From positions 1-35,464 of IMG/VR virus record IMGVR_UViG_3300027734_000178: DNA of 35,464 bases. One strand, given 5' to 3'. Of the stretch, positions 653 through 32,926 are shown one piece after another (within the stretch, counting starts at the first letter, position 1; each line of letters opens with the position of its first letter). The position numbers and the translations under genes were made by a program. The stretch is from a virus. The notes under the pieces are model-generated. The model worked only from the letters and a program-made list of their open reading frames with translations. It searched no databases and had not been told where the DNA came from.

Positions 653-1237
653 TTACACCGCGGGCGTGTCGAGCATCAACCCAAGGCGCGGCCATTCTGT
701 TTCGCTCCATGAGTGCCCCTTTCCATTCACACACGCACAATCCTCAGCTGCACACCTGCAACCGTGATTCCTGCAGAGCAGAAGCCCTTGGTCTAGCTTG
801 AGGACTAACGACTTAGTACAATACGGACATCTTAGTCTTGCTGACAAGGGCCTCTGCTCCAATCCTAGTAGAATCCTGACTTGATAATGGCGTTTGCCAG
901 TCGAATAGCCAATCTCTTCAATCAGCTTGGTTCGGTTGTCAGTCGGCCATTTTTCAATCGTGTCAGCAACCCAATACAGCGAGCGCTCGGCTTGCGTGTT
1001 TGGGACTGCTGGCTGGTTGAGCTCGAACCTGAGTTCGGCTTCCCACAAAAGTGTATCAGTGCGAATGTCCAAAATGGCATCAAGCACATCGACACGAAGT
1101 GGGAGTCGAGGCCCAGGCATTGAGCGCGTTGTGCGCTCGCCCGTACGTCCAGGTTCGAGCTCTGCGCTTAGCTCCTTGTACCAAGTGGCCAAGTCCCTAA
1201 GTTGTTGGGCTGTCTCAATGAATGGCTTATCAGACAC
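653..1237 (-). CDS. Zinc-ribbon protein of unknown function
   Basis: A 194-aa protein. I choose the GTG at 1237 because GGGAG lies five bases upstream and the start overlaps the dUTPase stop; a farther ATG at 1288 would overlap dUTPase by 59 bases. The N-terminal two thirds are helical and charged. The C-terminal part has a CPYC knuckle, then CRNHGC and CAAEDCAC, which fits one or two zinc-binding ribbons. No catalytic motif is recognised. It is the last gene of the purZ/deoxyribosyltransferase/dUTPase string. DNA or RNA binding is possible, but this is only inference. Confidence 0.75.
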   Translation of the reverse strand: MSDKPFIETAQQLRDLATWYKELSAELEPGRTGERTTRSMPGPRLPLRVDVLDAILDIRTDTLLWEAELRFELNQPAVPNTQAERSLYWVADTIEKWPTDNRTKLIEEIGYSTGKRHYQVRILLGLEQRPLSARLRCPYCTKSLVLKLDQGLLLCRNHGCRCAAEDCACVNGKGHSWSETEWPRLGLMLDTPAV

Positions 1238-1661
1238 CTGAACTCCCAAAACCCGAGGCGCCACGGTCGGTTTTGGGGAGTTCGTCAACCTGCTGCGCCT
1301 CTACATCTAGAGAGGCGTTATTCATGAGAATGTACTGCACCAAGCGCATGCCTGGTTCAATCTTGACTGGCTTGTCTGTCATATTCCACACGCCAGCAAA
1401 GAGTGGGCCTGTGTAGCCACAATCGATGATGCCTTGCGCGACCATGAGGCCGTGCTTGCGTAACGTGCTTGAGCGAGCTGTTAGCAAGCCCCACGTTCCT
1501 TCGGGCACTTTGATTGCAACACCGAGCGGTACGTCCACAAAAGTGCTCGGTTCAATCGTCATCTCTGCGTCACAATACAAGTCAAACCCAGCGTCGTCTC
1601 CGTACGCTTTAGTTGGGGCCAAACCTGTAGGACTGAGAACGCGGTACAATAGCGCTGCCAT
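1230..1661 (-). CDS. dut: dUTPase (dUTP diphosphatase)
   Basis: Trimeric-type dUTPase of 143 aa that hydrolyses dUTP to dUMP and pyrophosphate, keeping uracil out of DNA and feeding dTMP synthesis. All five family motifs are visible: AGFDLYC (25-30), ARSSTLRKHGL (62-72), GIIDCGYTG (77-85), PGMRLVQ (103-109) and RGASGFGSSG (133-142). Motif 3 has Gly where an acidic residue is common before the Tyr, a small deviation. The ATG at 1661 has GGAG five bases upstream; an earlier start at 1742 would run deep into the previous gene. It overlaps the deoxyribosyltransferase gene by 53 bases and belongs to the nucleotide-metabolism operon. Confidence 0.93.
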   Translation of the reverse strand: MAALLYRVLSPTGLAPTKAYGDDAGFDLYCDAEMTIEPSTFVDVPLGVAIKVPEGTWGLLTARSSTLRKHGLMVAQGIIDCGYTGPLFAGVWNMTDKPVKIEPGMRLVQYILMNNASLDVEAQQVDELPKTDRGASGFGSSGV

Positions 1662-2037
1662 GGTCACTCCATTCCATAATAGATTCGAATACTGGGGCTT
1701 CAAGAGCCGCAAGTGCAATGCTATGGATACCGACATCACCAATCACAATGACTGGAATCTCTTTGTCAACTGCATGCTGTATTTCAACGATTGTGCCGAT
1801 TGTGAAGACACTGCGCAGCAAAACAGCCACGACAAGGTCTGCGTCTTCTAGCACTTTGAGATTCGACCAATGCACAAACTCGTCGGGCACTAAGTCACTC
1901 GGTGCATTCCATGCGCCAGCTGGGTCATACACCCAAACGCACTCCTGCTCTTTGAAGTGGGCTTTGATTTCGTCTTTCAGCTTTGTGATGCGAGAGCCTT
2001 TGTCGAAGTCAATCGGTGCCGCAAGATAGACAATCAC
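1609..2037 (-). CDS. Nucleoside 2-deoxyribosyltransferase-like protein
   Basis: A 142-aa protein resembling the nucleoside 2-deoxyribosyltransferase family, which moves 2-deoxyribose between bases. Some members act as nucleotide N-glycosidases. Visible features are the N-terminal IVYLAAPIDF strand-loop, DADLVVAVL in mid-protein and the GTIVEIQHAV helix with the expected Glu. I choose the GTG at 2037: it overlaps the upstream stop as GTGA and places the first strand at the N-terminus as in the family. A GTG at 2055 is also open. In this operon it may salvage or exchange deoxynucleosides, or remove unwanted dNMPs. The substrate cannot be read from the sequence. Confidence 0.75.
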   Translation of the reverse strand: MIVYLAAPIDFDKGSRITKLKDEIKAHFKEQECVWVYDPAGAWNAPSDLVPDEFVHWSNLKVLEDADLVVAVLLRSVFTIGTIVEIQHAVDKEIPVIVIGDVGIHSIALAALEAPVFESIMEWSDHGSAIVPRSQSYRFGPN

Positions 2038-2429
2038 TTTGCGAAACCGCCCCACTCACCGTTGTGGCGTGCGTACTGCGCCATTTTGGTGTAGATAGCG
2101 ATATCGTGCCATGTATCGTCGCTCGGTTTGCGACCGTCTGCGTAGCCGCCCACAAGACGGGCGACCTTGCCGAGCACGTAGAAGGCGATGCCCAGTTCGT
2201 CATTCGTGACGTCCTTTGGCTCGCCAATCATTTGACTGAGTGCAAATCCAATTACTTTGAGGTCGGCACTGCCATACTCGAGCGCCTTTGGAATGACTGA
2301 GTCCAATTCGTTGCGAGTCTCGTCCAGCCACCACTCGGCCAGCTGCTTTACACCCTCGGGTGCAGACTCGCCTTCAAGTGGTAAACGGCCAAGGGCCGCC
2401 GCCAGGTCTTCCCACTTTTCGAACGCCAT
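2034..2429 (-). CDS. MazG/DUF1599-like candidate pyrophosphohydrolase
   Basis: A helical 131-aa protein directly downstream of the PurZ-like gene, with TAATG start-stop overlap. The C-terminal part contains SDDTWHDIAIYTKMAQYAR, whose spaced acidic residues resemble the metal-binding helix of all-alpha NTP pyrophosphohydrolases (MazG, DUF1599). An earlier helix (about 33-45) also carries paired acidic residues (DETRNELD). In known aminoadenine phages a MazG-type enzyme (MazZ) makes dGMP from dGTP for PurZ, so the location is suggestive. The similarity is weak by eye. It could instead be a conserved actinophage protein of another fold. Confidence 0.5.
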   Translation of the reverse strand: MAFEKWEDLAAALGRLPLEGESAPEGVKQLAEWWLDETRNELDSVIPKALEYGSADLKVIGFALSQMIGEPKDVTNDELGIAFYVLGKVARLVGGYADGRKPSDDTWHDIAIYTKMAQYARHNGEWGGFAK

Positions 2430-3463
2430 TACTTCACCCACGCCATTGTTGAAGGGCCAGTGCCAACGAGCGCCACTCGAGCATCAACTTGGTTCTCGAT
2501 GTCTGTGATGTAGTTGTACTGCTCGTCTGACAAGATGTCAATGCCGCTCTGGTCTTTGAGTTCTGGAAAGATGTAGTCGAACATGGTAAGTGCGATTTTG
2601 ACTGTTGGAGAGCCACCGTTTGCGATGACTGCCTCTTTGACAAGAGAAGCATCAAAGTGACCGACACGGCGAATCTTTTGAGTCACTGTTGTGCGTTCTG
2701 CCTCGAGTCCTAGCTCTTCCCAGTTGGTCTCGTTTTCGAGAGGTCCTGAATTGCCAGCTACGCGAATTGGGTAAGTGCGAGCAGTCACCCAAACGTCAAA
2801 AACGTCAACTGCGCTGTCCCACGGGCTGATGCCAGCTTGTGAGCAGAAGTCAACAGCACGACAGTCCTGGCTTGTGCAGAACGGGTACTGACCTGCGTGC
2901 AAACCAAGGCCATAGCCCTGCGTGCCTTCGATTAGTGCGGTGCCGCCCATACGAAGGTGCTCGCGAATAACTTTTGAAGTATCTACCCCGCCGCCAAACA
3001 GCGAAGCCTTGCGCATGATGCGGTCTGCACGTGCAGCACCGATTCCTTTGCTAGTCGAGCCGATTCGGGCTTGAATGCCGTCTGCGGTCTCAATATCGTG
3101 GTGCATTGGCTCCAAGATTGTGGCTTGGTCGTCAACGATGATGCGAGAGCTGGCTTGGTACCCAGCCTTGTCAAGTTCTGAAAGCTCTCGGTTGAAAACT
3201 TCCATGTCAATCTCTGAGCCTGCAGCGATGATAAGGTCAGACTCTGGTGCCGTGACTGCGTTGACTGGGATTGAGCGAAGGCGCCATGCGTATGATTCCT
3301 CGCCGTCTGGTCCCTTGCCATAAACCGTGTGACCAGCATTCGGCCCAGCCACTCTGATGCCCATGAACGGCACTTCAGATGTTGCGGATAGGTAGCCTGC
3401 TACGGCTCCCTTGCCTTCGCTGCCGTACTGGCCGCCAACTACGGCGATGAGACGTCCTGCCAT
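2429..3463 (-). CDS. purZ: PurZ-type adenylosuccinate synthetase (succinoaminodeoxyadenylate synthetase)
   Basis: A 344-aa PurA homologue, well short of the roughly 430 aa of cellular PurA. The N-terminal P-loop reads GGQYGSEGKG (10-19): residue 15 is Ser, where PurA has the catalytic Asp of GDEGKG. This Asp-to-Ser change is the recognised hallmark of phage PurZ, which condenses dGMP with aspartate to give the precursor of 2-amino-dAMP (Z). Also present are NAGHT (42-46, the PurA-type His), the EGTQGYGLGLHAG segment and ARTYPIRV near residue 228. The ATG at 3463 follows a GGGGGAAC ribosome site. It heads a string with a MazG-like gene, a deoxyribosyltransferase and dUTPase. Confidence is high for the superfamily and good for PurZ type. 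Confidence 0.88.
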   Translation of the reverse strand: MAGRLIAVVGGQYGSEGKGAVAGYLSATSEVPFMGIRVAGPNAGHTVYGKGPDGEESYAWRLRSIPVNAVTAPESDLIIAAGSEIDMEVFNRELSELDKAGYQASSRIIVDDQATILEPMHHDIETADGIQARIGSTSKGIGAARADRIMRKASLFGGGVDTSKVIREHLRMGGTALIEGTQGYGLGLHAGQYPFCTSQDCRAVDFCSQAGISPWDSAVDVFDVWVTARTYPIRVAGNSGPLENETNWEELGLEAERTTVTQKIRRVGHFDASLVKEAVIANGGSPTVKIALTMFDYIFPELKDQSGIDILSDEQYNYITDIENQVDARVALVGTGPSTMAWVK

Positions 3464-3949: not shown

Positions 3950-4114
3950 TCACTGGTGCCCCCACCCTTCGCCTTTGAAAATGACGCCTGGCGAGGACCA
4001 GACTCTATCAGCAAGCTGGCTGCAACACAAGGGCGCCACGATTTCACCAAGCACCGACTGGTCTGTTGTCAATGACATGCCGCACACTGCACAGCGAAAC
4101 TCATAAATCGGCAT
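3950..4114 (-). CDS. FmdB-type zinc ribbon protein
   Basis: A 54-aa protein read directly from the minus strand. It begins MPIYEFRCAVCG and ends near SSPGVIFKGEGWG, the opening and closing signatures of the FmdB/CxxC_CxxC regulatory zinc-ribbon family. The second knuckle is CC rather than the usual CxxC (APLCCSQ), an oddity that may weaken metal binding. The gene overlaps the primase-helicase stop by 14 bases and ends at the iteron-like region. Family members are often called regulators but their biochemical role is poorly known. Confidence 0.75.
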   Translation of the reverse strand: MPIYEFRCAVCGMSLTTDQSVLGEIVAPLCCSQLADRVWSSPGVIFKGEGWGHQ

Positions 4115-6188
4115 CTAGGGCTCCCTGGAATGGTCGTGGTGCTCCAAGCACGTAAGGCTTTGAGTGAGAAAAATAGCGGCCCTGGCCTTGGGCCCGCACT
4201 GTGAGGTAGCCAGTGTTCTCAAGCTGTGCGAGCGCCTTCTTGATTTGGTCGGTGCCGCCGTCTATCGCTTGCACGATTTGGTTGGTCGAAAGCTCTGCAC
4301 CGTGCTTCTCCATGAACTCTGACAGCTTGCGCATCAAGTATTCGTGAGGCGAGAAGCCGACCTGGCCACCAACGATTGAGATTTCAATGCGGTTGTCAGG
4401 TTGTGAAATCAAATCGACCGAGCCGATGAGCGAAGCCTCTTGAGCGATACCGCGCACGAACCCTGGGCGGTCTTTGGTGATTTTCAAGTTCAGCTTGCCG
4501 TTTGAGCCGCGACCGAAAGGCATGGACACGTCAACTGCGATTGCAACGCCATCGATATCGGCACGCTTTGCCTGGGCACCGATAGCGTAGTTGCCGCGGT
4601 TGTCCTTGCTCTTGGTCACGTGGTCAATCGTCAGGACAGCCGCACCCCACAAGCGAAGTGGGCGCAGCACAACCTGTGAGAACTGAGTCGCGTCTTTGTT
4701 CTTTTCAAGGTCGAGGCCCAGCAAGTTCATGGCGGCATTGACACCGTCCATCACAATCAAATCGGGCACGAAGTCGCGAATCGAGCCCAGGAGTGCCTGC
4801 TGCGCGATTTCGTTGTAGGCACCGTCAGGGTTGGCGTATTTGAAGCGGCTAAAGTGTTCGCGCAAGACCCCGAGTGCTTTCAGACGACCGCGAATGCCGC
4901 GCTTTGAATCCTCAAAGTCAATGTAAAAGACCTTGTTGCCCTGGACGAGCTGCTGCCTGACAGCTTCGAGCGCCACCCAGGTCTTGCCAGATTCTGACTC
5001 CCCGAAAATGGCGTTGATTTTCCCAGCGTACAAAAGGCACTGCCCGTCTGTTCGATAGAGAACGCTCGGGCCAGGTTCTGACTCCTCGTCCTCAAAGTCC
5101 ACGACTCTCGGCAGCCAGCTGGTGTCGGGTTCTGTCGCTGGCAGTTCTGCAAGCTCTAGGGCGGGCTCTGCCGCGGGCGCTTCAAGCCACGAACTCAGGT
5201 CAATCGGTTGCAGCTGACTGCCACCGCCCGTGCCGAATCCCTTGGCTTTGAGAGCTGCCGCCGACTTGTGGAAGTCGCCGCCGTGCTCGACGAGGGTGTA
5301 CACCGCGAACTTCGAATAGGCACGCTCTGCGTCAAAAATGGTGCTGGTGCTGAAGCAATAGAAAAAGTCGGTACCGTCAAAGCCTGTCGTGGCGCTGATG
5401 CCCTCGCTCTTGCCTGGACGGCGCCAGGCGGTAGTGCCGCGGTTGGTGAAAACCTTTGACCACCCCAGTGGCAAGAGAAGCTCGTCCCAGGTTGTCTTTG
5501 AGTTGTAGTCGTCTCCTGGAAGTTCGGTGTTCGTTTCCCGAGTACCCGCCGAGACCTCAGAAGCCAGTACCGCGGCCTTCGGAAGTTGGTCGAAGTATTT
5601 GAACAAGGAGTGGACAGTGTCACGCTCGTCTAGGCTCAGCAGCGGGATTGTCTCAATCGAGCCCGAAATCAACTGCCACACACCACCCGAAGGGTGACAC
5701 GTTCCCGCCGTAGGAGCAACGACCACAAAACCACCCTCGCCGCGGGTTTCCGCGAGCACATCTACGGTGTCGCCTTGTCCTGGTCTGCGAGCAAGTTTCG
5801 TGTTGCCTGGCACGTCGCCGTTCAAGCGATAGAGCCAGTGCAAGCCGCCTGACGGCGTCATCTCGCAGTAGCCCGAGTTCAGTCTGTCCCAGAGTTCGTC
5901 CAGCCCCATTTCGTGGGCCATTTCTTTGATTGAGGTGTGCAAGCCGTCTGCAACAGCTCGGCCTTCGAGTTCCATCATTTCGAGATTGCCCGATATCTTG
6001 CCAGTGATAAGGCCGACGCCCTGCGCATCTTTGAACCAAGTCTGAAGTTCGTCTGTCGTTGGAAGCTTGTGCTGGTACTCTTTCCACTGGCCAATGCCAG
6101 GTCGCTTGGAGCCGTCTGCCATAACGGGCACGACTGAGCACCCAACAGCCGCGAACCTCAACGCTGCAGTGAAGACATCAAGTGACAA
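4101..6188 (-). CDS. Primase-polymerase / RepA-type helicase fusion
   Basis: A 695-aa replication protein. Residues about 1-185 form a bifunctional primase/polymerase (Prim-Pol) domain: SLDVFTAALRFAAVGCSVVPV at the start, GVGLITGKISGNLEMMELEG with acidic metal-site residues, and an HPSGGVW segment. Residues about 385-620 are a RecA-fold helicase of the RepA/AAA_25 type with Walker A GESESGKT (396-403) and Walker B LIVMDG. The C-terminus looks like a winged helix (TNQIVQAIDGGTDQIKKAL). I choose the TTG at 6188 because GGGGGAAC lies just upstream; a GTG at 6233 has no ribosome site and lies inside a tRNA-like element. With no polymerase gene seen, it would prime and unwind for a host polymerase. 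Confidence 0.9.
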   Translation of the reverse strand: MSLDVFTAALRFAAVGCSVVPVMADGSKRPGIGQWKEYQHKLPTTDELQTWFKDAQGVGLITGKISGNLEMMELEGRAVADGLHTSIKEMAHEMGLDELWDRLNSGYCEMTPSGGLHWLYRLNGDVPGNTKLARRPGQGDTVDVLAETRGEGGFVVVAPTAGTCHPSGGVWQLISGSIETIPLLSLDERDTVHSLFKYFDQLPKAAVLASEVSAGTRETNTELPGDDYNSKTTWDELLLPLGWSKVFTNRGTTAWRRPGKSEGISATTGFDGTDFFYCFSTSTIFDAERAYSKFAVYTLVEHGGDFHKSAAALKAKGFGTGGGSQLQPIDLSSWLEAPAAEPALELAELPATEPDTSWLPRVVDFEDEESEPGPSVLYRTDGQCLLYAGKINAIFGESESGKTWVALEAVRQQLVQGNKVFYIDFEDSKRGIRGRLKALGVLREHFSRFKYANPDGAYNEIAQQALLGSIRDFVPDLIVMDGVNAAMNLLGLDLEKNKDATQFSQVVLRPLRLWGAAVLTIDHVTKSKDNRGNYAIGAQAKRADIDGVAIAVDVSMPFGRGSNGKLNLKITKDRPGFVRGIAQEASLIGSVDLISQPDNRIEISIVGGQVGFSPHEYLMRKLSEFMEKHGAELSTNQIVQAIDGGTDQIKKALAQLENTGYLTVRAQGQGRYFSHSKPYVLGAPRPFQGALDADL

Positions 6189-6212
6189 GTGTTCCCCCGT
6201 TGTTTGATTTGC

Positions 6213-6284
6213 GTGCGACGCTGGGACTTGCACCCAGTGCTGCCTAATTCGCTCTTCCCCAAGTACGAACTTTGCAACGCCGCG
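6213..6284 (-). ncRNA. Degenerate tRNA-like element
   Basis: On the minus strand a 72-base stretch has a perfect T-arm (CTGGG, loop TGCAAGT, CCCAG; 6237-6221), a 3' acceptor arm (6220-6214) that pairs at six of seven positions with 6284-6278, and a D-loop-like AGTTCGTA. The anticodon stem does not pair and the T-loop has G at its second position, so it is not a canonical tRNA. It could be a decayed tRNA, a tRNA-derived attachment site, a structured leader of the primase gene, or chance. Confidence 0.22.
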
Positions 6285-8005: not shown

Positions 8006-8419
8006 CTAGTACCAGTTCTTTCGTTGAAAATGCTGCCAAGCCTTGCACGGCCCGCCTGAGCCGTACTTGCGCCCGATGTAAGCGAGCGCCGCCACTGTCT
8101 GTGGCACTGCCTCGGTCGAGTGCTTCATTCCGAGATTTCGGTAGGTGCTTCTTAGAAGCTGGCCCACCCCCGCTGCCGAGCTAGTCGGATTTTGGGCCTT
8201 CGGATTCCAAGCGCTCTCCTTGCCCATCAGCTGGGTGAAGCACTTGTACTGCTGTGGAGTGAGCAACGCCCGAGCCACGTCCCTCGCGTCCGCTTGCATG
8301 AGGCTCTGTTGAGCAGTTACAAGTGGCTGTGCTGGTTTTGCCTGGATTGCGTCTAACGCGATTGCTAACGATACTGCCACGACGGCGTATCGTACGAGAA
8401 ACTTTGTTGCTGGGCGCAT
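8006..8419 (-). CDS. Secreted lytic transglycosylase-like protein
   Basis: A 137-aa protein with an N-terminal signal or membrane anchor (basic MRPATKFLVR, hydrophobic core 11-24, possible cleavage near AKPA). The rest matches the SLT lysozyme-like fold: catalytic Glu68 in GKESAWNPKAQNP, then SSAAGVGQL, the usual Glu-to-GxxQ spacing. It would cut peptidoglycan glycan strands outside the membrane. It sits in the replication arm, far from the CHAP endolysin at 13650. It could help entry, remodel the wall early, or support lysis. GAAGGGAGC upstream of the ATG supports this start. Confidence 0.8.
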   Translation of the reverse strand: MRPATKFLVRYAVVAVSLAIALDAIQAKPAQPLVTAQQSLMQADARDVARALLTPQQYKCFTQLMGKESAWNPKAQNPTSSAAGVGQLLRSTYRNLGMKHSTEAVPQTVAALAYIGRKYGSGGPCKAWQHFQRKNWY

Positions 8420-9206: not shown

Positions 9207-10445
9207 TCACAGAGACGACACGCCGTTCATCATTGACGCCTCTTGCATAGCCAGGCGCAGCATTGACAAGCTGTCCCAGGTGTGCTCATTGTCGGGCTCG
9301 GGGCAGCGCTTGCGCACGCCATACTTGGCGGCTTGGTAAGCCTCGTTGCGTGTCATGCCTTCATTGATGAACTCGTTGAGCATGGTGGTGCTGCCTTCAG
9401 TGGCGATATTGTAGCGCATTTGAGCGGCGTTCACGCGAAGGTTCTTGACCAGGTCGGCTGTAGTCTTCAGGACGTGCTCGGTGATAGCGCAAAGGTCGGG
9501 CACTGCGATGCGCTCGACAGATGAATGGCTGATGTCGCGTTCGTGCCATAGGGCGATTCCCTCGGTGATTGGCATGACATAGGCCCTGGTCATCTTGGCA
9601 AGGCCGCAAATCTTTTCGGACGCGATTGGGTTCTCCTTGTGCGGCATAGAGGACGAGCCCTCTTGTCCAGGGCTGCGACCCTCGAACAGCTCGCGCACCT
9701 CGGTTCGCATGCCGTGGCGCACTTCGAGTGCAAAAGCCTCACAGATTGATGCGAGATTCGCCAGGCTGTAGGCCCAGGCCCCGAGAGAATCTCGCATCAA
9801 CACCTGAGTGGCGCTGTTTGGTGCATTGAGGCCAAGGTCTTTGGCAACGTCCAGCTCTACAGCGCGGGGCACATGGGCGTTGTTACCCAGTGGCCCCGAG
9901 ATGTGGGCAGTCTGAACTTCATTTGCAGAGTGAGCGAAGCGGTCTAGGCTTCTGTCCAAGGCAAATGCGATGTCGGCGACCCTGTAACCCCAGGTCGTCG
10001 GCTCTGCAGCCTGGCCGTGAGTGCGCCCGATTTTCCGCTGGTCTTTGTGTTGAAAGGCGTGGGCAATGAGAGCCTCGAGCAGGTCGTAACCCGCCCGACT
10101 GATGAGCCAGTTGGCTTCGGCCAGCAAAAGAGCCTGAGCGGTCTCCACCACGTCAGAGCTGGTTAGCCCGTAGTGCAGGTACCTGTGCAGGTCTTTGTTG
10201 TCCGTACTTTGACGCCAGGCTTCAAGAAAGGCCATGACGTCGTGCTTGAGCGTTAGCTCTTGGTGTGCTACTTGGTCGGGGGTTGGTAGCAGGACAAGCT
10301 CGAGGGCCCGCCAAAGGTCGCGGTCGAGTATCCCGCGCCGTCCTTGGGCCTTCATGACCTCGAGCTCTACTTGCCCCCAGGTCGCTATCTTGTTCTCGTC
10401 TGACCAAACCGCCGCCATTTCGGGCGTAGTGTATCGGTTTATCAT
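9207..10445 (-). CDS. purB: Adenylosuccinate lyase (fumarase/aspartase superfamily)
   Basis: A 412-aa PurB homologue that eliminates fumarate from adenylosuccinate and SAICAR. In aminoadenine phages PurB also converts the PurZ product into 2-amino-dAMP. Visible: the first conserved segment GLTSSDVVETAQ (93-104), GRTHGQAAEPTTWGY with the catalytic-type His143, and the signature SSSMPHKENP (264-273) with the mobile-loop Ser and Lys. It is slightly shorter than many cellular enzymes. The ATG at 10445 has no ribosome site and the -10 box ends only six bases upstream, so the mRNA is probably leaderless. It is the first gene of the leftward arm, opposite the small-gene operon. Confidence 0.92.
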   Translation of the reverse strand: MINRYTTPEMAAVWSDENKIATWGQVELEVMKAQGRRGILDRDLWRALELVLLPTPDQVAHQELTLKHDVMAFLEAWRQSTDNKDLHRYLHYGLTSSDVVETAQALLLAEANWLISRAGYDLLEALIAHAFQHKDQRKIGRTHGQAAEPTTWGYRVADIAFALDRSLDRFAHSANEVQTAHISGPLGNNAHVPRAVELDVAKDLGLNAPNSATQVLMRDSLGAWAYSLANLASICEAFALEVRHGMRTEVRELFEGRSPGQEGSSSMPHKENPIASEKICGLAKMTRAYVMPITEGIALWHERDISHSSVERIAVPDLCAITEHVLKTTADLVKNLRVNAAQMRYNIATEGSTTMLNEFINEGMTRNEAYQAAKYGVRKRCPEPDNEHTWDSLSMLRLAMQEASMMNGVSSL

Positions 10446-24088: not shown

Positions 24089-25533
24089 TAGTTGACCTCG
24101 TAAACTGATGATGGATTTTCGGGGTCAATCGTTGAGACTTGCTGCAACTGACCTGTTGGAACTCCAGTGTGACCCATCGGTGGCAAGCCCACGGCCTCAA
24201 GGACCGCTTTCGGCTCAAACCCGACTTGTATCAAGTTGGTGGCGATTTCAGCCCTCAGCTTCATGCCAACGTCTTTTGCGTCCTTTGCGTCGATGTTCTG
24301 CAACGGAACTCTGTATTGGTCGCCAGACTCGCCAAGTGGCGCAAGGTCTTCAACTGCGCGGACGTCGTTGAGTGACAAGAAGCCCTCGTTGAGTCCCTTT
24401 GTGTAAGCGTCGTAGCGCTCGAGTGTTGTACCGCGCAGCAGCGCATCAAGGTTGAACTTGATAAAGCCATCAGACTCTGGCAGCAGCGGTGAGAGTGCTT
24501 GCTCTAGGCGCTCCAAAAGTGGGCGCAGTGAGTGTTGAACGAATGACAGGTTCTGAGCTTCAACTGATGCAAAGCTCATGGCGCCTGCCACTGGGTGTCC
24601 AAGCAGTGAGATTGGAACACGGAAAAGGCGAGCGATTTCTTCGACTCCAAAGCGACGAACTTCGAGAAGCTGCGCGTCTGAGGCGTTGAGTGTAAGCGGC
24701 TTGAACGAAGCGCCACCAGTTAGAATGCCAAGCTTGCCAGCACGGTAAGGGCCAGTGTGGCTCATGTTCCAGTTGCGAGCGATGTCCGAAATCTGCTCCT
24801 CAGTCATTTCGCCTGGAGACTCAATGACGCCGCCTGGGTTTGCAGCGTTACCAAAGTAGCTGGCTGCGTAAACTTCTGCAGCCATCGCAGAGCCAAGAGT
24901 GATGCGAGCAGCCGCGATTGGACCAAGACCAAGAAGCTGGCCTGGAAGTCTGAACATCGGAATATGCAGCATTTCGTTCTTTGTAAGCACCATCGTCTTT
25001 GTCGCCATAGGGTCGAAAGGCTGTGCATTGTCATAGAACTGGTTGACTGGGTCTTGCGCGTTTTGACCGATTGTGACGACGTACTCAATCTCGCCCATTG
25101 GGTCTGGGCGGCGAATGCGAACTTGAAGCGGGTTGATGCAGTAGAGCTCTTTCACGTCGCCCATGTCATCGCGCACTGTCAAAATGAAAGCGTTGCCGTG
25201 CAAGTTCAAAGACGAGATAACCTGCTCATAGAACTCCAGGCGTGTAGCTTCAGGATTCGGCTTGGTCACCCACTCTGGCATTTCGCCATAGACTGATGCG
25301 TATGAGATGCGGGCTCGCCCTCTGCGTACGTAGGCAGAAAGGGGCAATGAACTAATTGTATCACCCAAAAGACGCACGCACGCGTAAACGGTGGACATGC
25401 GAATTGCTGTGTCGGAATTAACATCAACGCCAGCTGGAGTTGCGTACAAAGCGCGGCCAGGCAAAAACGGTTCTAAGAACTGGTTGTTCGACCGTTGTTC
25501 GCCTGCTTTGCGCAGTCTGTTCGATAAGCTCAT
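24088..25533 (-). CDS. Portal protein
   Basis: A 481-aa portal of the HK97 type. It has SDTAIRMSTVYACVRLLGDTISSLPL, the stem-like ARNWNMSHTGPYRAGKLGIL, LLEVRRFGVEEIARLFRVPISLLG and SFASVEAQNLSFVQHSLRPLLERLE, all usual landmarks. It forms the twelve-fold ring through which DNA enters and leaves. It starts by ATGA overlap with the glycosyltransferase gene and leads into protease and capsid genes. In most siphoviruses TerL precedes the portal directly; here about 8 kb of fibre genes intervene. Confidence 0.92.
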   Translation of the reverse strand: MSLSNRLRKAGEQRSNNQFLEPFLPGRALYATPAGVDVNSDTAIRMSTVYACVRLLGDTISSLPLSAYVRRGRARISYASVYGEMPEWVTKPNPEATRLEFYEQVISSLNLHGNAFILTVRDDMGDVKELYCINPLQVRIRRPDPMGEIEYVVTIGQNAQDPVNQFYDNAQPFDPMATKTMVLTKNEMLHIPMFRLPGQLLGLGPIAAARITLGSAMAAEVYAASYFGNAANPGGVIESPGEMTEEQISDIARNWNMSHTGPYRAGKLGILTGGASFKPLTLNASDAQLLEVRRFGVEEIARLFRVPISLLGHPVAGAMSFASVEAQNLSFVQHSLRPLLERLEQALSPLLPESDGFIKFNLDALLRGTTLERYDAYTKGLNEGFLSLNDVRAVEDLAPLGESGDQYRVPLQNIDAKDAKDVGMKLRAEIATNLIQVGFEPKAVLEAVGLPPMGHTGVPTGQLQQVSTIDPENPSSVYEVN

Positions 25534-26603
25534 TTAGTGGCCTTTTCTGTCTCGAGTTGATACCAGCCGTCGTCCCAAAGGGTAAGCAGCCTTGCAAAAT
25601 AGTCTTCGTACATCTTTCCAACAGTCGCAAGTGAATACTTCTCGATTGCTTGCTGTCTAATCGCTGCGCGGTCGAGTGACTTGACGTCCTCGGCTGCACG
25701 AACGAAATCGGCGAGAGTGCGGCATCTGTAGCCAGTCACTCCGTTGATGTTGGTCTCTACGAATGCACCCCAGTCGGTCGTGATTGTAGGAGTGCCACAG
25801 ACTTGGGCTTCGATGGCAATATTGCCAAAAGGCTCGATATACAGAGTTGGTGCGAACAACGCAATTGCGCCGCCCATAAGCTCGGCTCTTTGCTCGGGTC
25901 CAACGTTTCCGATGAACTCGCCGTAGCCTGTGCCTTCGCCTGGGCCCGCAAGAATGAGCCTCTTGCCAAGGCGTTCGCAGACTTCTTGTGCGATTCTGTA
26001 GCCTTTTCGGTCGATGATACGCCCGATAAAAAAGTAATAGTCTCCGTCGCCATCACCCGCTGGGAACATCTCAGGTTCGAGGTACCCTGGTATTACTGCG
26101 TCAAAGAAGTTGCCGTTTGTTGTTGTCGGATTTGTGTGTCCAGCGTAGATTGAGTGCATCCACGCGTAAGACTCAAAAACGCGGTACTTGGCGAAAGTGC
26201 CGCCGTACCCGATTCCAAACTCGACTGTCGTGTGCTGCGGGAAAGCGTCTGCGATTGGCTTGTGTGCGGTGCCGCCGATTACGCAAATGAAGTCTTTTGG
26301 TTCTAGACGCTCGCGCATCTTGTTGATGGCGGTTGCGTTAAACACCTGCCAGTGCGGCAAGTTCGTATCAAACGACGCCGTCGTGTAGTGGTTTTTGCCA
26401 ACCGCTGCAGCTCGCAGGTCCTCGCCGATGCAGACCACGTGCTCGGTCACTGGCGCTTCATTTTCCTCGCCAGCGTAGAGAATAACCTCATGTCCGAGGT
26501 CCGTCATCATGATACAGAAACGTCGCACCTTCTCAGTGAAGGCGCAGCTTGTAAAGTCTTTTGTTACATTTGTGTGTGGCAGTGCTACAACGTGGAATCT
26601 CAT
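25530..26603 (-). CDS. GT-B (GT4-like) glycosyltransferase
   Basis: A 357-aa enzyme starting at an ATG with GGGGGACC upstream. The N-terminal Rossmann half has HVVALPHTNVTKDFTSCAFTEKVRRF. The C-terminal half shows YYFFIGRIIDRKGYRIA, RLILAGPGEG and LYIEPFGNIAIEAQVCGTPTITTDWG, the nucleotide-sugar binding EPFG...EAQxxGxP signature of GT4-like retaining enzymes. It would move a sugar from an NDP-sugar donor. Located between fibre genes and portal, its target may be capsid, tail or fibre proteins; glycosylated virions are known in mycobacteriophages. Host-wall sugars are another possible target. Confidence 0.87.
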   Translation of the reverse strand: MRFHVVALPHTNVTKDFTSCAFTEKVRRFCIMMTDLGHEVILYAGEENEAPVTEHVVCIGEDLRAAAVGKNHYTTASFDTNLPHWQVFNATAINKMRERLEPKDFICVIGGTAHKPIADAFPQHTTVEFGIGYGGTFAKYRVFESYAWMHSIYAGHTNPTTTNGNFFDAVIPGYLEPEMFPAGDGDGDYYFFIGRIIDRKGYRIAQEVCERLGKRLILAGPGEGTGYGEFIGNVGPEQRAELMGGAIALFAPTLYIEPFGNIAIEAQVCGTPTITTDWGAFVETNINGVTGYRCRTLADFVRAAEDVKSLDRAAIRQQAIEKYSLATVGKMYEDYFARLLTLWDDGWYQLETEKATK

Positions 26604-26620
26604 TGGTCCCCCGACCTTGT

Positions 26621-26854
26621 TCATTCTGTTATTGCTGCGATTTCGTCGCCAGTCAGGCCAAGCGCCTGAAGCTTGGCTTGTGCGGTCAGCTTTGCGTCAG
26701 CCTTTGCGGCTTCTGCTGCTTCGCGCTCTGCTCGTTCGATTGCTGCGTTTTGTGCATCAATCTCGCGCTGCTCAATCTCTTCAGGTGTAAGGTCGATATA
26801 TCGTTGAGTCCCTGTTGACAGGTCCACAACCAGTTTCTTTGGCACTTCGCTCAT
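26621..26854 (-). CDS. Small helical fibre-cassette protein (77 aa)
   Basis: Begins MSEVPKKLVVDLSTGTQRYIDLTPEEIEQRE at the ATG overlapping the previous stop (TAATG). A long charged Ala/Glu-rich helix (about 30-60) follows, ending LQALGLTGDEIAAITE. The pattern resembles small phage tail-fibre-associated proteins with a DLTPEE opening. Possibly a fibre chaperone or attachment piece. An upstream ATG at 26941 lies inside the preceding gene and is rejected. Confidence 0.65.
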   Translation of the reverse strand: MSEVPKKLVVDLSTGTQRYIDLTPEEIEQREIDAQNAAIERAEREAAEAAKADAKLTAQAKLQALGLTGDEIAAITE

Positions 26855-27161: not shown

Positions 27162-28544
27162 TTATACCATCGCGTATCGAATAATTACAATGCCAGAACC
27201 ACCCGAACCAGCAACACCAGCGCCACCACCAACTACGGGGTACCCGCTTGCGCCACCGCCGCCACCCGTGCCAATAATTCCACTGTTTGGTGTAGTTCCA
27301 GCTGGCACTGCTGCACCACCGCCGCCGTTTCCACCAGCACCTGAGCCGCTTGTGTTGGCATTGATGCCACCACCGCCACCACCAGCGTACCAATAAGTCC
27401 CGCCTATGTTTTGGCCAGTCAATGTAGCAGCGCCCCAAGAAGAGTACGTAGATAAACCATTGCCACCAGCACCGCCTGCACTATCATTTCCATTACCGCC
27501 AACTGCGCCCATACCACCACCACCACCTGCGCCGTAGTTTGGTGCGGCTGAATTAGCGTTACCGCCAGCAAAACCCTGCGAGCCAGTTCCACCAGTTGAC
27601 GACAAAGAACCAACCGCGCCACCACCACAACCGCCGTTTTGTGCGCCGCTTGGCCCGAAGTTACGACCCCAAGACCCGCCGCCACCTTGCGCAGCAGTAA
27701 GCGATGCGAATTGAGAGTTGCTTCCTTTACCCGATGGTATTCCAGCACCACCAGTTCCTGCACCCCCCGCGCCTACGACAACTGCGTGGTTAATGCTCGT
27801 CAGGCTTTGTGATGAAGCGTACACAAGACCACCAGCACCGCCGCCACCCGATGAATTGTCGGTAGCACCGCCACCACCCGCGACAGTAAGCACATCAACT
27901 GCCAGTGCCAGTTGAGGTGTAAACGTTCCAGAGGTCAAGAAAGCGTGGTACCAGTAGGTGCCGTCGTTGGCGATGATGTTGCCGCCTGTGGCTTTCGGTG
28001 CCGTTACTGGTGTTGTGCCGAACGCAGCCACACCGTAGAGTGAAAAAGTGCTGTACTGCACGAACTGCGCCGTTGGAGAGTTGTACGGTGTGATTGTGAT
28101 TGATGAAATCGCAGTGTTTGATGAATACAAACCAGCGCTCAGCTGAATCGCAGCGCCCGAGGCGTTGTTCTCTGACACCGACTCCATAGACACAGTCTTG
28201 TATGTCGTTGTCGAATTGTAGTTTGGCAAATACATTGTTGTGTTGCCGAATGTCGAAGCTGTAGCGCCAGATGAAGTCACGCCAAGCGTAACGAAAGATG
28301 TGGTATCGGTGCGACTTGATGGTGTTCCGCTGCCCAGTCCAATAAGGTCGCGCCATGAGAGCGCAGCGCCTGAGTTTACAGTGATATAAGTGTCGTACCA
28401 AGAATTGCCAAATGTTGCGCTGCAACGAGTGCTCATCACAAGTTTGAGGTCGGTGTAGCCAGTTTGCGGTATACTGTCAAGTGTGACAGAAGAAGCGCTT
28501 TGAGTCAGCTCGATTGTTTCAAGAAGCACATAGTTGGCTGGCAT
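27162..28544 (-). CDS. Glycine-rich tail fibre / adhesin 1
   Basis: A 460-aa protein with two parts. Residues about 1-175 are a beta-sandwich (NYVLLETIELTQSASSVTLDS, TDLKLVMSTRCSAT, ending FVQYSTFSLYGVAAFG). After a linker (PKATGGNIIANDGTYWYHAF) comes a glycine-rich domain (about 225-460) with GGGGAGG motifs interrupted by loops. Such domains resemble the polyglycine-sandwich adhesins at fibre tips, where the loops decide host range. Ends in a strand IVIIRYAMV. A clear paralogue of the next gene upstream. Confidence 0.82.
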   Translation of the reverse strand: MPANYVLLETIELTQSASSVTLDSIPQTGYTDLKLVMSTRCSATFGNSWYDTYITVNSGAALSWRDLIGLGSGTPSSRTDTTSFVTLGVTSSGATASTFGNTTMYLPNYNSTTTYKTVSMESVSENNASGAAIQLSAGLYSSNTAISSITITPYNSPTAQFVQYSTFSLYGVAAFGTTPVTAPKATGGNIIANDGTYWYHAFLTSGTFTPQLALAVDVLTVAGGGGATDNSSGGGGAGGLVYASSQSLTSINHAVVVGAGGAGTGGAGIPSGKGSNSQFASLTAAQGGGGSWGRNFGPSGAQNGGCGGGAVGSLSSTGGTGSQGFAGGNANSAAPNYGAGGGGGMGAVGGNGNDSAGGAGGNGLSTYSSWGAATLTGQNIGGTYWYAGGGGGGINANTSGSGAGGNGGGGAAVPAGTTPNSGIIGTGGGGGASGYPVVGGGAGVAGSGGSGIVIIRYAMV

Positions 28545-28553
28545 TTTTCTCCC

Positions 28554-29939
28554 TTAGGCCTTCAAGTAACGAACTATGACAACACCCGAACCGCCAGCTT
28601 TAGTATCTGCACCGCCGCCGCCGCCTGTGTTAGGAAGACCAGCAGTTGCGCCAACTTCAGTTCCGACCCCGCCGCTGCCACCGCCACGTCCACCGCCACC
28701 AGCACCGCCAGCACCCCAAAAACCGCCCGCTGCACTGCCGCCGATTGAACCACCGCCGCCGCCAGCCAGGTAGTAATTGCCAGCCACGAGCTGGCCTACA
28801 CCAGTCGCCGCGCCAATCGAATTAATAAATGAGTCTGTGCGCCCAATGCCACCTGCGCCGCCATTCGTAGCTGAACCGTTGCCGCCTGCGCCGCCTGCGC
28901 CGCCGCCACCGCCTGTGCCGTACTGCGAGGTAGCAAAGCCGCTGCCGCCTGCAAAACCATAACCAGTCGCGCCACCCGAAGTGCCTTGAGTTGCTGCGCC
29001 GCCAGCTGCAGAAGTGCCGTAACCGCCGCCGCCGCCCGAACCACCAGCAGCGCCAGTGAGAACGCCAGCTGCGGGATTGCCGTAGCCGCCGCCGCCGCCG
29101 CCCAACGCCGTTATGGAGTTGAAAGTGGTGTTGATGCCCTGGCCGCCCCTTGCGTTTACTGTGTTGGCCGTGCCGCCCGCGCCGATGGTTGCAGTGTACG
29201 TGGTGCCGCTTGTGTATCCGCTGTTCAAAAGAATACAAAGACCACCAGCACCACCAGCACCACCATCATCGCCTGACGAACCGCCGCCACCCGCAAGAAC
29301 TAGGGTGTCAGCATTGAATGTCTGAGATGGAATGAAAGCGCCACTAGAACCAAAAACGTGGTAGTAGTATGTCGAATCTGAATAAATCGCGCCGCCCGTA
29401 GCTTTTGGCGCGGGGCTGATTCCTTCAGCCGCGATGCCGTAAAGCGAGAATGTAGAGCCCGCCAGAATGCTACCACTGGCCATGAGGCATGTTATCGTTG
29501 TAATTGCTTCGGGTGTTTTGCGCCAAACGCCGATAAGCCCTTCAGTTCCAGTGTAAGTCGGAGTTGTGGCCGTGGCTCTGTTACTGCGTGCGACAACAGT
29601 TTTATAAATGTTGGTTGAAGCGTAGCTTTGTATGTTGATTATCAGGTTTGCCGTGATGTCGTTTGAAGTCGCGGTGTTCCACTGCGCGAACATCGCATTG
29701 CGGTCTGCTGATTTACCAGCCCTTGTACCTGAACCATTGCCGTCGATTGAAATAGTTGAATAATTTGTTGCAGAATCGGAGTTAAAACGCAGCTGTAGGT
29801 AATCTTCAGCTACAGTTGAACCGACATTGGCAACAATAACAAGGTCTGTGTACCCGCCACTTATGCCCGTGAAGTCAACGCTGCTTACGTTTGAGGCTAT
29901 GGTCTTTTTGTCTAAGGCGACATACGTGTTTGTTGCCAT
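28554..29939 (-). CDS. Glycine-rich tail fibre / adhesin 2
   Basis: A 461-aa paralogue of adhesin 1 with the same order: a beta-sandwich (TYVALDKKTIASNVSSVDFTG ... GSTFSLYGIAAEG), a PKATGGAIYSDSTYYYHVF linker, and a glycine-rich domain ending GSGVVIVRYLKA. Sandwich domains differ strongly in sequence while the glycine framework is alike. The two could be co-assembled or alternative receptor-binding proteins. The coding strand is very GC-rich in the Gly stretch, which creates spurious Pro-rich frames on the other strand. Confidence 0.82.
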   Translation of the reverse strand: MATNTYVALDKKTIASNVSSVDFTGISGGYTDLVIVANVGSTVAEDYLQLRFNSDSATNYSTISIDGNGSGTRAGKSADRNAMFAQWNTATSNDITANLIINIQSYASTNIYKTVVARSNRATATTPTYTGTEGLIGVWRKTPEAITTITCLMASGSILAGSTFSLYGIAAEGISPAPKATGGAIYSDSTYYYHVFGSSGAFIPSQTFNADTLVLAGGGGSSGDDGGAGGAGGLCILLNSGYTSGTTYTATIGAGGTANTVNARGGQGINTTFNSITALGGGGGGYGNPAAGVLTGAAGGSGGGGGYGTSAAGGAATQGTSGGATGYGFAGGSGFATSQYGTGGGGGAGGAGGNGSATNGGAGGIGRTDSFINSIGAATGVGQLVAGNYYLAGGGGGSIGGSAAGGFWGAGGAGGGGRGGGSGGVGTEVGATAGLPNTGGGGGADTKAGGSGVVIVRYLKA

Positions 29940-30515
29940 TTATTTCACCCCGTAAAGTGCAAACGACGAATACTGCGCAAAACTTGTTTGGTTGGTAGTA
30001 ATGCTTAAAGCAGAAACGGCAGATATACTTCTCCAACAAGATGAATTGAAGAAAAACGCTTCACCAGCGTTGTTGTTTAAACTTGTACCAGCGATGGCAT
30101 TAACTGTCTTGTTCTTTGTAGGGCTGGCGTAGTCTAAAATATCAACAATCATGGTTGCATATGACAAAGGCAACGCTGATGAGGCACCCTGTGCTTGTCC
30201 GATTGCGCACGCTGTAGTGTTGATGCTTGAATCCGCTCCAGGCGAACCCGTTCCGTATCCATAAACACGGTGCCAAGAGTAGTTGCCACTAGCGTCATCA
30301 TTCATTTGCATATAGATTGTTCCATCGCCTGTGCCAGTTGTAGACCTGTGCACTGCGCGAATCTGCAAATGCCTATATCCAGCTGGAATACCCGCAAAAG
30401 TGACCGAAGGGACCGCCGTTGCGCCCACAGTTACAGTGGCCAGTGCGTCATACACGCCTACGGCAAAACTCAGGTTGCCGCTAATGGCAGAGGCTAAGAC
30501 TCCAAGGATTGGCAT
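29940..30515 (-). CDS. Fibre beta-sandwich protein without glycine-rich domain
   Basis: A 191-aa protein that corresponds only to the N-terminal sandwich of the two adhesins: SVTFAGIPAGYRHLQIRAVHRST in the same place as their TDLxxV strands, and an end FAQYSSFALYGVK that matches their FSLYGVA motif and then stops. It may be a founder module, a truncated duplicate or a spacer subunit. It overlaps the collagen-like gene stop by one base. Confidence 0.75.
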   Translation of the reverse strand: MPILGVLASAISGNLSFAVGVYDALATVTVGATAVPSVTFAGIPAGYRHLQIRAVHRSTTGTGDGTIYMQMNDDASGNYSWHRVYGYGTGSPGADSSINTTACAIGQAQGASSALPLSYATMIVDILDYASPTKNKTVNAIAGTSLNNNAGEAFFFNSSCWRSISAVSALSITTNQTSFAQYSSFALYGVK

Positions 30516-31156
30516 TAGGAGAGGTCACCCACGACTGTAAATGTATTTGCTGCTGTGCAGATAATCGAACAAGCTGAATACCGTGCTCTTAGCTTGGGCG
30601 CTGTTGCTGTCGCACCAGTGGAAGTGATTGTGACACCCGCACCCTGCGCAAAAGTAACCTGGCCCACACCGATTTGCTGCACATTGATAACGTCATTGGC
30701 TGCAAACACCGAAGGTGGAACAGTGATGGTGATTGCACCTGCGTTGTTAGCTGTAACCAAGTCGTTGACGTCGGTTAGAACAAGCGTGTAAGTTGTGCCA
30801 GTTTGTGCGTTGAAAGCTGCGATACCGCCACCAGCAGCGCCAGTTGGACCTGTAGCGCCGTTTGGACCAGTTGCACCTGTCGGACCTGTTGGCCCTGTCG
30901 CACCGATTGGACCAGTTGGACCTGTGATGCCAGTAACGCCAGTTGGGCCTGTCGCACCGATTGGACCAGTTGGACCAGTAGCGCCAGCAGCACCAGCTGT
31001 GTAAGCATACGCCAAAGAGTTCCAAGGAGTTGAGCCCGTGCCCATCTTGTACTTGGCTGTGTCGGTTTCGAGTCCGATTTCGCCTGCAGCAAGGGTGGGG
31101 TTGTTAGATGTCCAGTTGGCCGCGGTGTCTCGGCGATTTTGGAGTCTTGATGTCAT
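30515..31156 (-). CDS. Collagen-like fibre with Mtd-type N-terminus
   Basis: A 213-aa protein. Residues 1-50 ([45 protein letters not shown]) are the head-binding domain common to phage fibres (Mtd_N-like/hyaluronidase-like). Then about 20 Gly-X-Y triplets ([13 protein letters not shown]) form a collagen-like shaft. The C-terminal 85 residues ([26 protein letters not shown] ... ) are a small trimeric-type beta domain. A complete short fibre by itself. Confidence 0.85.
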
Positions 31157-31177
31157 GTTGGCTGCTTTCTCTATTGG

Positions 31178-32926
31178 CTAGAATGTCGTGACTGACGCCC
31201 CAGCGTCAATGATGTAAGTCCATGAAGTTGTGCTTGATGTCTCTGCGTTGTATATGACGTCGCCGATTTGAGCCGAGGTGCCGCCGTCTAAGTAGTCTAC
31301 AACGGGGTTGTCGCCGCCTTGCGGGCCAGTCGCACCAGTCGCACCGTTTGCGCCAGTTGCACCCGTTGCACCGACTGGACCTGTAGAGCCCGTCGGACCT
31401 GTTGTGCCTTGCGGGCCAGTTGGGCCAGTGGCGCCTGTTGCGCCGTCTGTGCCGTTCGTACCTGCAGGGCCTGTGGCACCAGTTGCACCGACGGGGCCTG
31501 TGGCACCGACTGCGCCTGTTGAACCGACAGCTCCTGTTGCACCGACTGGGCCAGTCGCACCGACGGGGCCTGTGGCGCCGATTGGGCCAGTAACTCCGAC
31601 GTCGCCTTGGATTCCTTGAATGCCTTGTGGGCCTGTTGCGCCAGTAGCACCTGCAGGGCCTGTGGCTCCTGCTGGACCTGTGGCACCGACTGGGCCTGTT
31701 GGACCAGTCGCACCATCAACACCAGCGGGGCCTGTTGCACCAACTGCACCTGTTGCTCCAGCTGCACCCGACGCGCCGACTGGGCCTGTAGCACCGATTG
31801 GCCCTGTTGGACCCGTCGGGCCTGGGATAATAGAAGCTGCACCGCTGGCACCAGTTGCACCGATTGGGCCTGTTGGGCCTGTCGAGCCTGTGGGACCTTG
31901 TGGGCCTGTAGCACCTGTTGCACCGCTTGGTCCAACAATGCCGCCCGAAACGATTGCTAAGAAGACTAAGTGGTTATTCGCAAAGCCAGTTGTGCCAGTT
32001 CCACCCGACGCGAGCAAAGAGACTGCGATTGTATCGTAGCCAGTCTGCTCGACAGGCGCCGCTGTGACCGTCCATTTTTGAAAGTTGTCAGAGTCGTTGG
32101 CATCTTGTACAACAACAACGTCGCCCGCTTCGAGCAAATGAAGGAAAATATTGATGTCGTAGTTGTCAGCATCAATGTGGCTCACGTTAAGCGCAGTTGC
32201 GCTCGTTTGTGTTGCGTTGTTGTAAATAATGAAAGTGTTGCCAGGGTTGCCGCTTGTTATGCTTGTCTTGATTTTGTAGTCATAGAAGCTGCTGGACTGC
32301 CCCTGTGGACCCGTGGCGCCTGTCGCGCCCGTTGGACCACTGACACCTGTTGCGCCGATTGGGCCTGTTGCTCCAGTTGCGCCGATTGGGCCTGTTGTAC
32401 CTGTTGGGCCTGGAACGGTAGAAGCTGCGCCAGTCGCGCCAGTGGCACCGACTGGGCCTGTAGCTCCAGTTGCGCCGACTACGCCTTGAATGCCTTGTGG
32501 ACCTGTTGCACCGACTGGACCTGTCGCGCCGACTGGACCTGTTGGGCCAGTGACACCGACGAGGCCTTGTGGGCCTGTTGCTCCAGTTGTGCCCTGCGGG
32601 CCTGTTGCGCCGATTGGGCCAGTCACACCGACTGGACCTTGAATGCCTTGGATTCCTTGTGGGCCTGTCGCGCCGACTGGACCTGTTGGGCCAGTAACGC
32701 CGATTGGGCCAGTGACACCGATTGGGCCAGTAACACCGATTGGGCCTGTTGGGCCAGAAGCGCCGCTTGGACCAGTGACGCCGATTGGGCCAGTTGCACC
32801 TGTCGCACCAGCAGGACCTGTTGGACCTGTTGGGCCAGTTGAGCCTACAGGGCCCTGTGCTCCAATGTCTGAGATAAGGACGGTGTTGATGTCCTTGACG
32901 ACGGTGACTTGATTTTGGTCAGACAC
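31178..32926 (-). CDS. Long collagen-like fibre protein
   Basis: A 582-aa protein. After a short N-terminus ([18 protein letters not shown]) come two long Gly-X-Y blocks (about residues 28-213 and 333-540) made of GPTGP, GATGP, GPIGV and [11 protein letters not shown] units. A globular beta domain of about 120 residues separates them ([21 protein letters not shown] ... ). A 35-residue C-terminal cap follows. It would make a long trimeric fibre. The repeats are prone to recombination and length change. No phase break is visible. Confidence 0.85.

Follow-up and report, generated by a model that had tools for sequence, protein, structure and literature searches.

The virus represented by the IMG/VR record IMGVR_UViG_3300027734_000178 (35,464 nucleotides, analysed over its whole length and called the window below) probably replaces adenine by 2-aminoadenine (Z) via the PurZ0 route, without the DNA polymerase DpoZ and with a lyase of its own. 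Synthesis of Z is very likely, because the PurZ of the window carries the catalytic Ser and its gene is accompanied by companion genes; full substitution of Z for A in a phage lacking DpoZ is less sure, and the strongest competing reading is a partial one. The PurZ enzyme type itself is already known (PurZ0). What goes beyond the published PurZ0 phages is the lack of PolA/DpoZ in the lineage, a phage-encoded adenylosuccinate lyase (PurB) and the near-universal presence of the uncharacterised protein X135 after purZ. The gene identities, the clade, the catalytic residues, the gene order, the lack of PolA and DatZ matches and the purifying selection are established here; the enzyme activities, Z in the virion DNA and the role of X135 are inferred.

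The purZ gene (2429..3463, minus strand) begins with ATG and encodes a protein of 344 aa, which was assigned to the PurZ0 subgroup by its ORF, PHROG and structure matches, alignment and tree. The earlier note had described a short PurA homologue with the P-loop GGQYGSEGKG, Ser15 and a retained His, and the ORF, the P-loop (residues 10-19) and N42-A43-G44-H45 are all as described. Ser15 and His45 are invariant across the alignment with reference PurZ0 proteins. The protein matches PHROG 1211, '2-aminooxy adenylosuccinate synthetase' (E 2e-79), and Pfam PF00709 (E 2e-43). Among solved structures the best match is 7VF6 (E 1e-84), which PMC12884076 identifies as the PurZ0 of Gordonia phage Archimedes; below it stand Pyrococcus PurA (5K7X, 1e-44) and the PurZ proteins of phiVC8 and S-2L (about 1e-27). 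The catalytic position is occupied by Ser in 83/83 collected PurZ0 proteins and by Asp in 37/37 cellular PurA.

The maximum likelihood tree (IQ-TREE, LG+C20+F+G4) included 84 proteins: 62 PurZ0 candidates, 3 reference PurZ, 10 archaeal-type and 9 bacterial-type PurA. PurZ0 forms a single clade (support 97/94) including the window, Archimedes, Ghobes, Preamble and Galactica, and PurZ0 and PurZ group together (100/99) apart from all archaeal and bacterial PurA. Because the bootstrap had not wholly converged and the three reference PurZ are long branches, the point at which PurZ0 joins PurZ is less certain than the split of PurZ0 from cellular PurA. The window protein thus combines the catalytic Ser with a position in the PurZ0 clade, outside both PurA and the PurZ of S-2L and phiVC8, and is therefore PurZ0 and not of the S-2L/phiVC8 type, which is a neighbouring subfamily. 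The tree proposed in the earlier note as a check on a PurZ-type rather than cellular enzyme accordingly favours PurZ; the comparison made there with S-2L and phiVC8 holds for the type of enzyme, but the subgroup is the actinophage type, not theirs. The product of the gene is predicted to convert dGMP, aspartate and ATP to N6-succino-2-amino-dAMP (dSMP). Protection of the virion DNA from restriction or Cas nucleases, as proposed in the earlier note, would depend on Z being present in it.

On the same strand, 3' of purZ, lie X135 (2034..2429), an NDT-family gene, dmtZ (NDT/DNPH1 family, 1609..2037), and a dUTPase-family gene, dutZ (1230..1661), so that dutZ and dmtZ of the PurZ0 gene set are both present close downstream of purZ. 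Stop and start codons overlap at the purZ-X135 junction (TAATG; likely ATG of X135 at 2429) and at the X135-dmtZ junction (GTGA; likely GTG of dmtZ at 2037), and the likely ATG of dutZ is at 1661. The order purZ-X135-dmtZ-dutZ is common to the window, Ghobes and most IMG/VR PurZ0 loci; in the published PurZ0 phages dutZ is found in 98/98 and dmtZ in 85/98 (PMC12884076). In the window lineage dutZ adjoins a further conserved gene (653..1288, minus strand; PHROG 1467), which possibly lies outside the pathway.

DmtZ and DutZ of the window were called by family, residues and position. In PurZ0 phages DmtZ is a dAMP hydrolase also able to transfer deoxyribose phosphate to the Z base, DutZ is a dATP/dGTP/dUTP pyrophosphohydrolase, and in Ghobes and Wayne the two enzymes drain dATP to adenine (PMC12884076, February 2026). 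Five residues of Ghobes DmtZ were tested by mutagenesis in the same work (Y6, D12, P57, N77, E103); four of these are kept in 75/75 homologues and N77 in 74/75, and all five are present in the window. The lid residue Trp124 of the Ghobes enzyme is Ile in the window, and Trp occurs in only 15/75 homologues. Among the phage dUTPases sampled from its hits, those of PurZ0 phages match window DutZ best, at 45-51% identity; a clear gap separates them from the dUTPases of other phages, none of which exceeds 37.6%. By their likeness to the Ghobes and Wayne enzymes, window DmtZ could act as a dAMP hydrolase and deoxyribose-5-phosphate transferase to Z, and, by likeness to Ghobes DutZ, window DutZ could act as a dATP/dGTP/dUTP pyrophosphohydrolase. 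The companion genes are not those of the S-2L type: DutZ and DmtZ were found instead of DatZ and MazZ, the PF12917 profile of DatZ (YfbR-like HD phosphohydrolase) has no match, and X135, which adjoins purZ, is unlike S-2L MazZ and phiVC8 MazZ-2. Two IMG/VR loci differ in their dmtZ call (L064 near 5337 and L065 near 10935), a 294-aa ORF overlapping X135 where neighbours have about 130-150 aa; the probable cause is a start codon called too far upstream, not a fusion.

X135, a family of uncharacterised proteins of about 100 aa, is represented in the window by a helical protein of about 131 aa. Homologues are encoded on the purZ strand in 78/79 metagenomic PurZ0 loci whose contig continues for 500 b or more beyond purZ, as a rule directly after it. 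The sole exception is L069 (12,865 b), in which purZ lies on one strand and X135 on the other, as part of an inverted X135-dmtZ-dutZ block with a second purZ piece; this contig looks like a palindromic assembly error and is probably misassembled. Among GenBank phages, X135 is present in 31 records from genera carrying PurZ and adjoins purZ in those opened; the corresponding place in Arthrobacter phage Preamble is taken by a DUF5664 protein. Conserved residues are K52, Y56, G65, E82, K92, R95, D109, D113 and Y117 (135-aa numbering).

X135 has no match in Pfam. Its AlphaFold2 model is confident and helical (mean pLDDT 85.8), and most of the viral structures that Foldseek places nearest to it, its own family aside, belong to DUF6378 or Nmad1 ('nucleotide modification associated domain'), at E about 0.1 or worse. 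Profile-profile comparison with DUF6378 gave E 8e-4 but a probability of 24% (controls, E about 0.6), and the DUF6378 Pfam profile weakly matched one of 53 X135 members (E 0.037) and nothing in the PurZ0 genomes. The likeness to DUF6378/Nmad1 proteins is weak and suggestive. Direct HMMER comparison with DUF6378 sequences was not better than shuffled controls, similarity to S-2L MazZ, phiVC8 MazZ-2 or DUF5664 was not detectable, and the DUF1599 profile had no match in 14/14 records. Sequence and fold searches of the PDB gave weak helical matches only (iMazG, Z 5.1, rmsd 6.8 over 59 residues; MazG and HisE, Z 3.6-3.7), all unusable as proof. Its position and fold prompt the guess that X135 may handle nucleotides, perhaps as a MazG-like enzyme acting with PurZ0.

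The step following PurZ could be performed by a PurB-like adenylosuccinate lyase of 412 aa (9207..10445, minus strand), identified by its Pfam family match and an intact active-site signature (THGQxAEPTT, SSxMPHKxNP, HERDISHSS); the residue before NP is Glu in the window (KENP) and Arg in most relatives. This step was assigned to the host in PMC8342488 and PMC12783734, and PurB is not mentioned in PMC12884076; the GenBank annotation 'PurB-like adenylosuccinate lyase' exists in Streptomyces and Gordonia phages. PurB is present in 20/38 larger PurZ or PurZ0 records, among them the relative G014, and in addition in the window and its relatives G002 and G005; it is absent in the other 18/38, including the PurZ0 phages Cicada and Preamble; S-2L, phiVC8 and SH-Ab 15497 have no PurB match. 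As it is missing from many such records, PurB is not essential to the route. In nine loci of sister lineages (L037, L039, L088, L090, L092, L097, L098, L101 and L103) purB lies inside the purZ operon, directly after X135, and is followed by dmtZ and dutZ where the contig extends far enough. The simplest reading is that phage PurB would be a dedicated lyase converting dSMP to dZMP. In a tree of phage and cellular PurB, a branch with SH-aLRT 99 had all the phage proteins on the same side; no origin is drawn from this, as the tree came from a quick run, had long branches and lacked actinobacterial sequences.

A single phage-encoded DNA polymerase was recognised in the window, a PrimPol (AEP primase-polymerase) with a RepA-like AAA ATPase fused to it (4101..6233, minus strand); it was identified by Pfam and PHROG matches and by motifs, namely an acidic pair (ELE), TPSGGLH and DVL, which were equated with those of S-2L by eye. 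The family A polymerase PolA/DpoZ-1 (profile PF00476) has no match in the window or in its relatives G001, G002, G005 and G014, and the same search that covered G014 finds PolA in 24/35 records. One of these is the more distant G017, a contig of 39,795 b with an end repeat of 123 bases and a PurZ of about 63% identity. A perfect correspondence of PurZ0 and PurZ phages to two clades of DpoZ has been reported (PMC12884076), and S-2L was described as the only Z-phage with PrimPol and without PolA (PMC8342488). Judged by its genes, the window lineage is a second DpoZ-less case, in another branch (PurZ0) than S-2L. Without DpoZ, the choice of Z over A must come from dATP depletion; copying could also fall to host Pol III or to a polymerase so divergent that the PolA profile of Pfam misses it. 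PolA matches are likewise lacking in the PurZ0 contigs G028, G030, G035 and G036, which are not closed. In the last three (37-43 kb; loci L083, L089 and L091) PurB is transcribed away from purZ, and they are possibly another DpoZ-less lineage.

The proposed route would start with DutZ, which would convert dATP and dGTP to dAMP and dGMP. PurZ0 would condense dGMP with aspartate to dSMP, the phage PurB-like lyase would remove fumarate from dSMP to give dZMP, and host kinases would produce dZTP. DmtZ could either destroy dAMP or move its deoxyribose phosphate onto free Z. Depletion of dATP would then select Z over A during copying by the phage PrimPol and/or a host polymerase, as reported for S-2L. 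A fuller version of this reading is quite possible and is put forward tentatively: Z-DNA would arise in a DpoZ-less PurZ0 lineage purely via the dATP pool emptied by DutZ and DmtZ, with its own dSMP lyase and with X135 as a dedicated PurZ0 component, for example a MazG-like enzyme handling dGTP or dGMP.

Among cultivated phages, Gordonia phages Ghobes and Archimedes and Arthrobacter phage Wayne share with the window the PurZ0 clade, the catalytic Ser and the DutZ and DmtZ families, and Ghobes and Archimedes also have a PurB-like lyase; however, all three have the family A polymerase DpoZ-1. The window PurZ is 50% identical to that of Archimedes and 43% to that of Ghobes. The closest isolated PurZ proteins (50-54% identity by tblastn) belong to the Streptomyces phages Galactica, Keanu and Hiyaa (genomes of 81-83 kb), which also encode a PurB-like lyase about 40% identical to that of the window and an X135 domain; in Galactica DmtZ and DutZ are fused, X135 makes up the C-terminal portion of a protein of 315 aa, and PolA is present. 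The cyanophage S-2L resembles the window in having PrimPol as its sole phage polymerase and no PolA, with Z specificity expected via dATP removal, but it differs in PurZ subgroup and in having DatZ and MazZ for DutZ, DmtZ and X135, and the C-terminal part of its PrimPol differs from the RepA-like ATPase of the window. The PurZ-subgroup phages with DpoZ-2 use the same type of PurZ reaction, with DatZ and MazZ-2 or DUF550/DUF5664, and have no PurB match.

Partial replacement of A by Z is somewhat unlikely. It would follow if PrimPol or the host polymerase did not discriminate in the absence of DpoZ and dATP depletion were incomplete; S-2L PrimPol does not discriminate between A and Z (PMC8065100), and S-2L removes dATP by DatZ, which is absent here. 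Nevertheless, the draining of dATP by DutZ and DmtZ in Ghobes and Wayne could replace DatZ (PMC12884076), and the cluster is kept under purifying selection. The values of dN/dS, calculated from only those pairs unsaturated at silent sites, are 0.03-0.10 for PurZ, X135, DutZ, PurB and PrimPol and 0.16-0.24 for DmtZ; purZ, an intact gene, gives 0.04-0.07 against relatives 89-94% identical. Values this low throughout indicate that the whole gene set is maintained.

The missing DpoZ could also be an artefact of incomplete contigs or of an unrecognised polymerase, given that IMG/VR lists the contigs as linear and that coding sequence of the window between 10.6 and 13 kb is unannotated. This is quite unlikely, as two relatives without PolA close on themselves and none of the remaining unassigned ORFs, structural genes aside, is large enough to encode a Pol I. 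Highly improbable is a reading in which the PurA homologue is an auxiliary metabolic gene raising AMP and dATP, with PurB as its partner and with normal DNA. PurA and PurB are indeed consecutive enzymes of AMP synthesis with homologues of both in the window, and purB occurs without reported PurZ in some phages, e.g., Microcystis phage MaAM05; the Ser instead of Asp throughout the clade and the place of the protein with PurZ0, away from cellular PurA, argue against it, as do the linked DutZ and DmtZ, whose relatives destroy dATP and dAMP, the opposite of a dATP boost (PMC12884076).

Replacement of A by Z via PurZ0 without DpoZ stays the preferred reading. A second, distantly related DpoZ-less lineage tests whether pool depletion alone can write a Z genome. 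The phage PurB lyases and X135 offer direct starting points for work to complete the Z pathway and to make Z-DNA without host enzymes, and both could aid the recognition of Z-phages in metagenomes.

The window has an HNH gene at its start and TerS at its end, and no end repeat. In G005 (34,080 b, PurZ 90% identical), which has a 99-base exact end repeat, HNH and TerS are adjacent at the point where the window is cut, and the gene order is otherwise the same. The ends of G014 (32,186 b, 75% identity in PurZ) repeat each other exactly over 123 bases, and this contig shares the set of nucleotide and replication genes. These repeats are read as circular closure, although IMG/VR classes both contigs as 'linear', and the window is an essentially complete genome, of about 35 kb, of an uncultured siphovirus. 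Its terminase relatives are actinophages, and PurZ0 isolates among the matches infect Actinomycetota, from which the host is probably an actinobacterium. A PurZ search of genome contigs for a host via a binned phage found none, and a nucleotide search with the first 25 kb of the window gave no match among phage and plasmid records.

Several further genes were observed. A transglycosylase-like gene (PHROG 12661, 8006-8419) lies within the replication and nucleotide block, between an exonuclease and a RusA-like gene, and is kept in relatives. A glycosyltransferase gene (25530-26624; PHROG 3408, E 9e-79) is found between the portal and a tail-fibre-like block, and its product could possibly glycosylate the host surface or the virion. 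Two collagen-like proteins with long GATGPTGP repeats are encoded at 30515-32926, near glycine-rich structural proteins (27162-29939).
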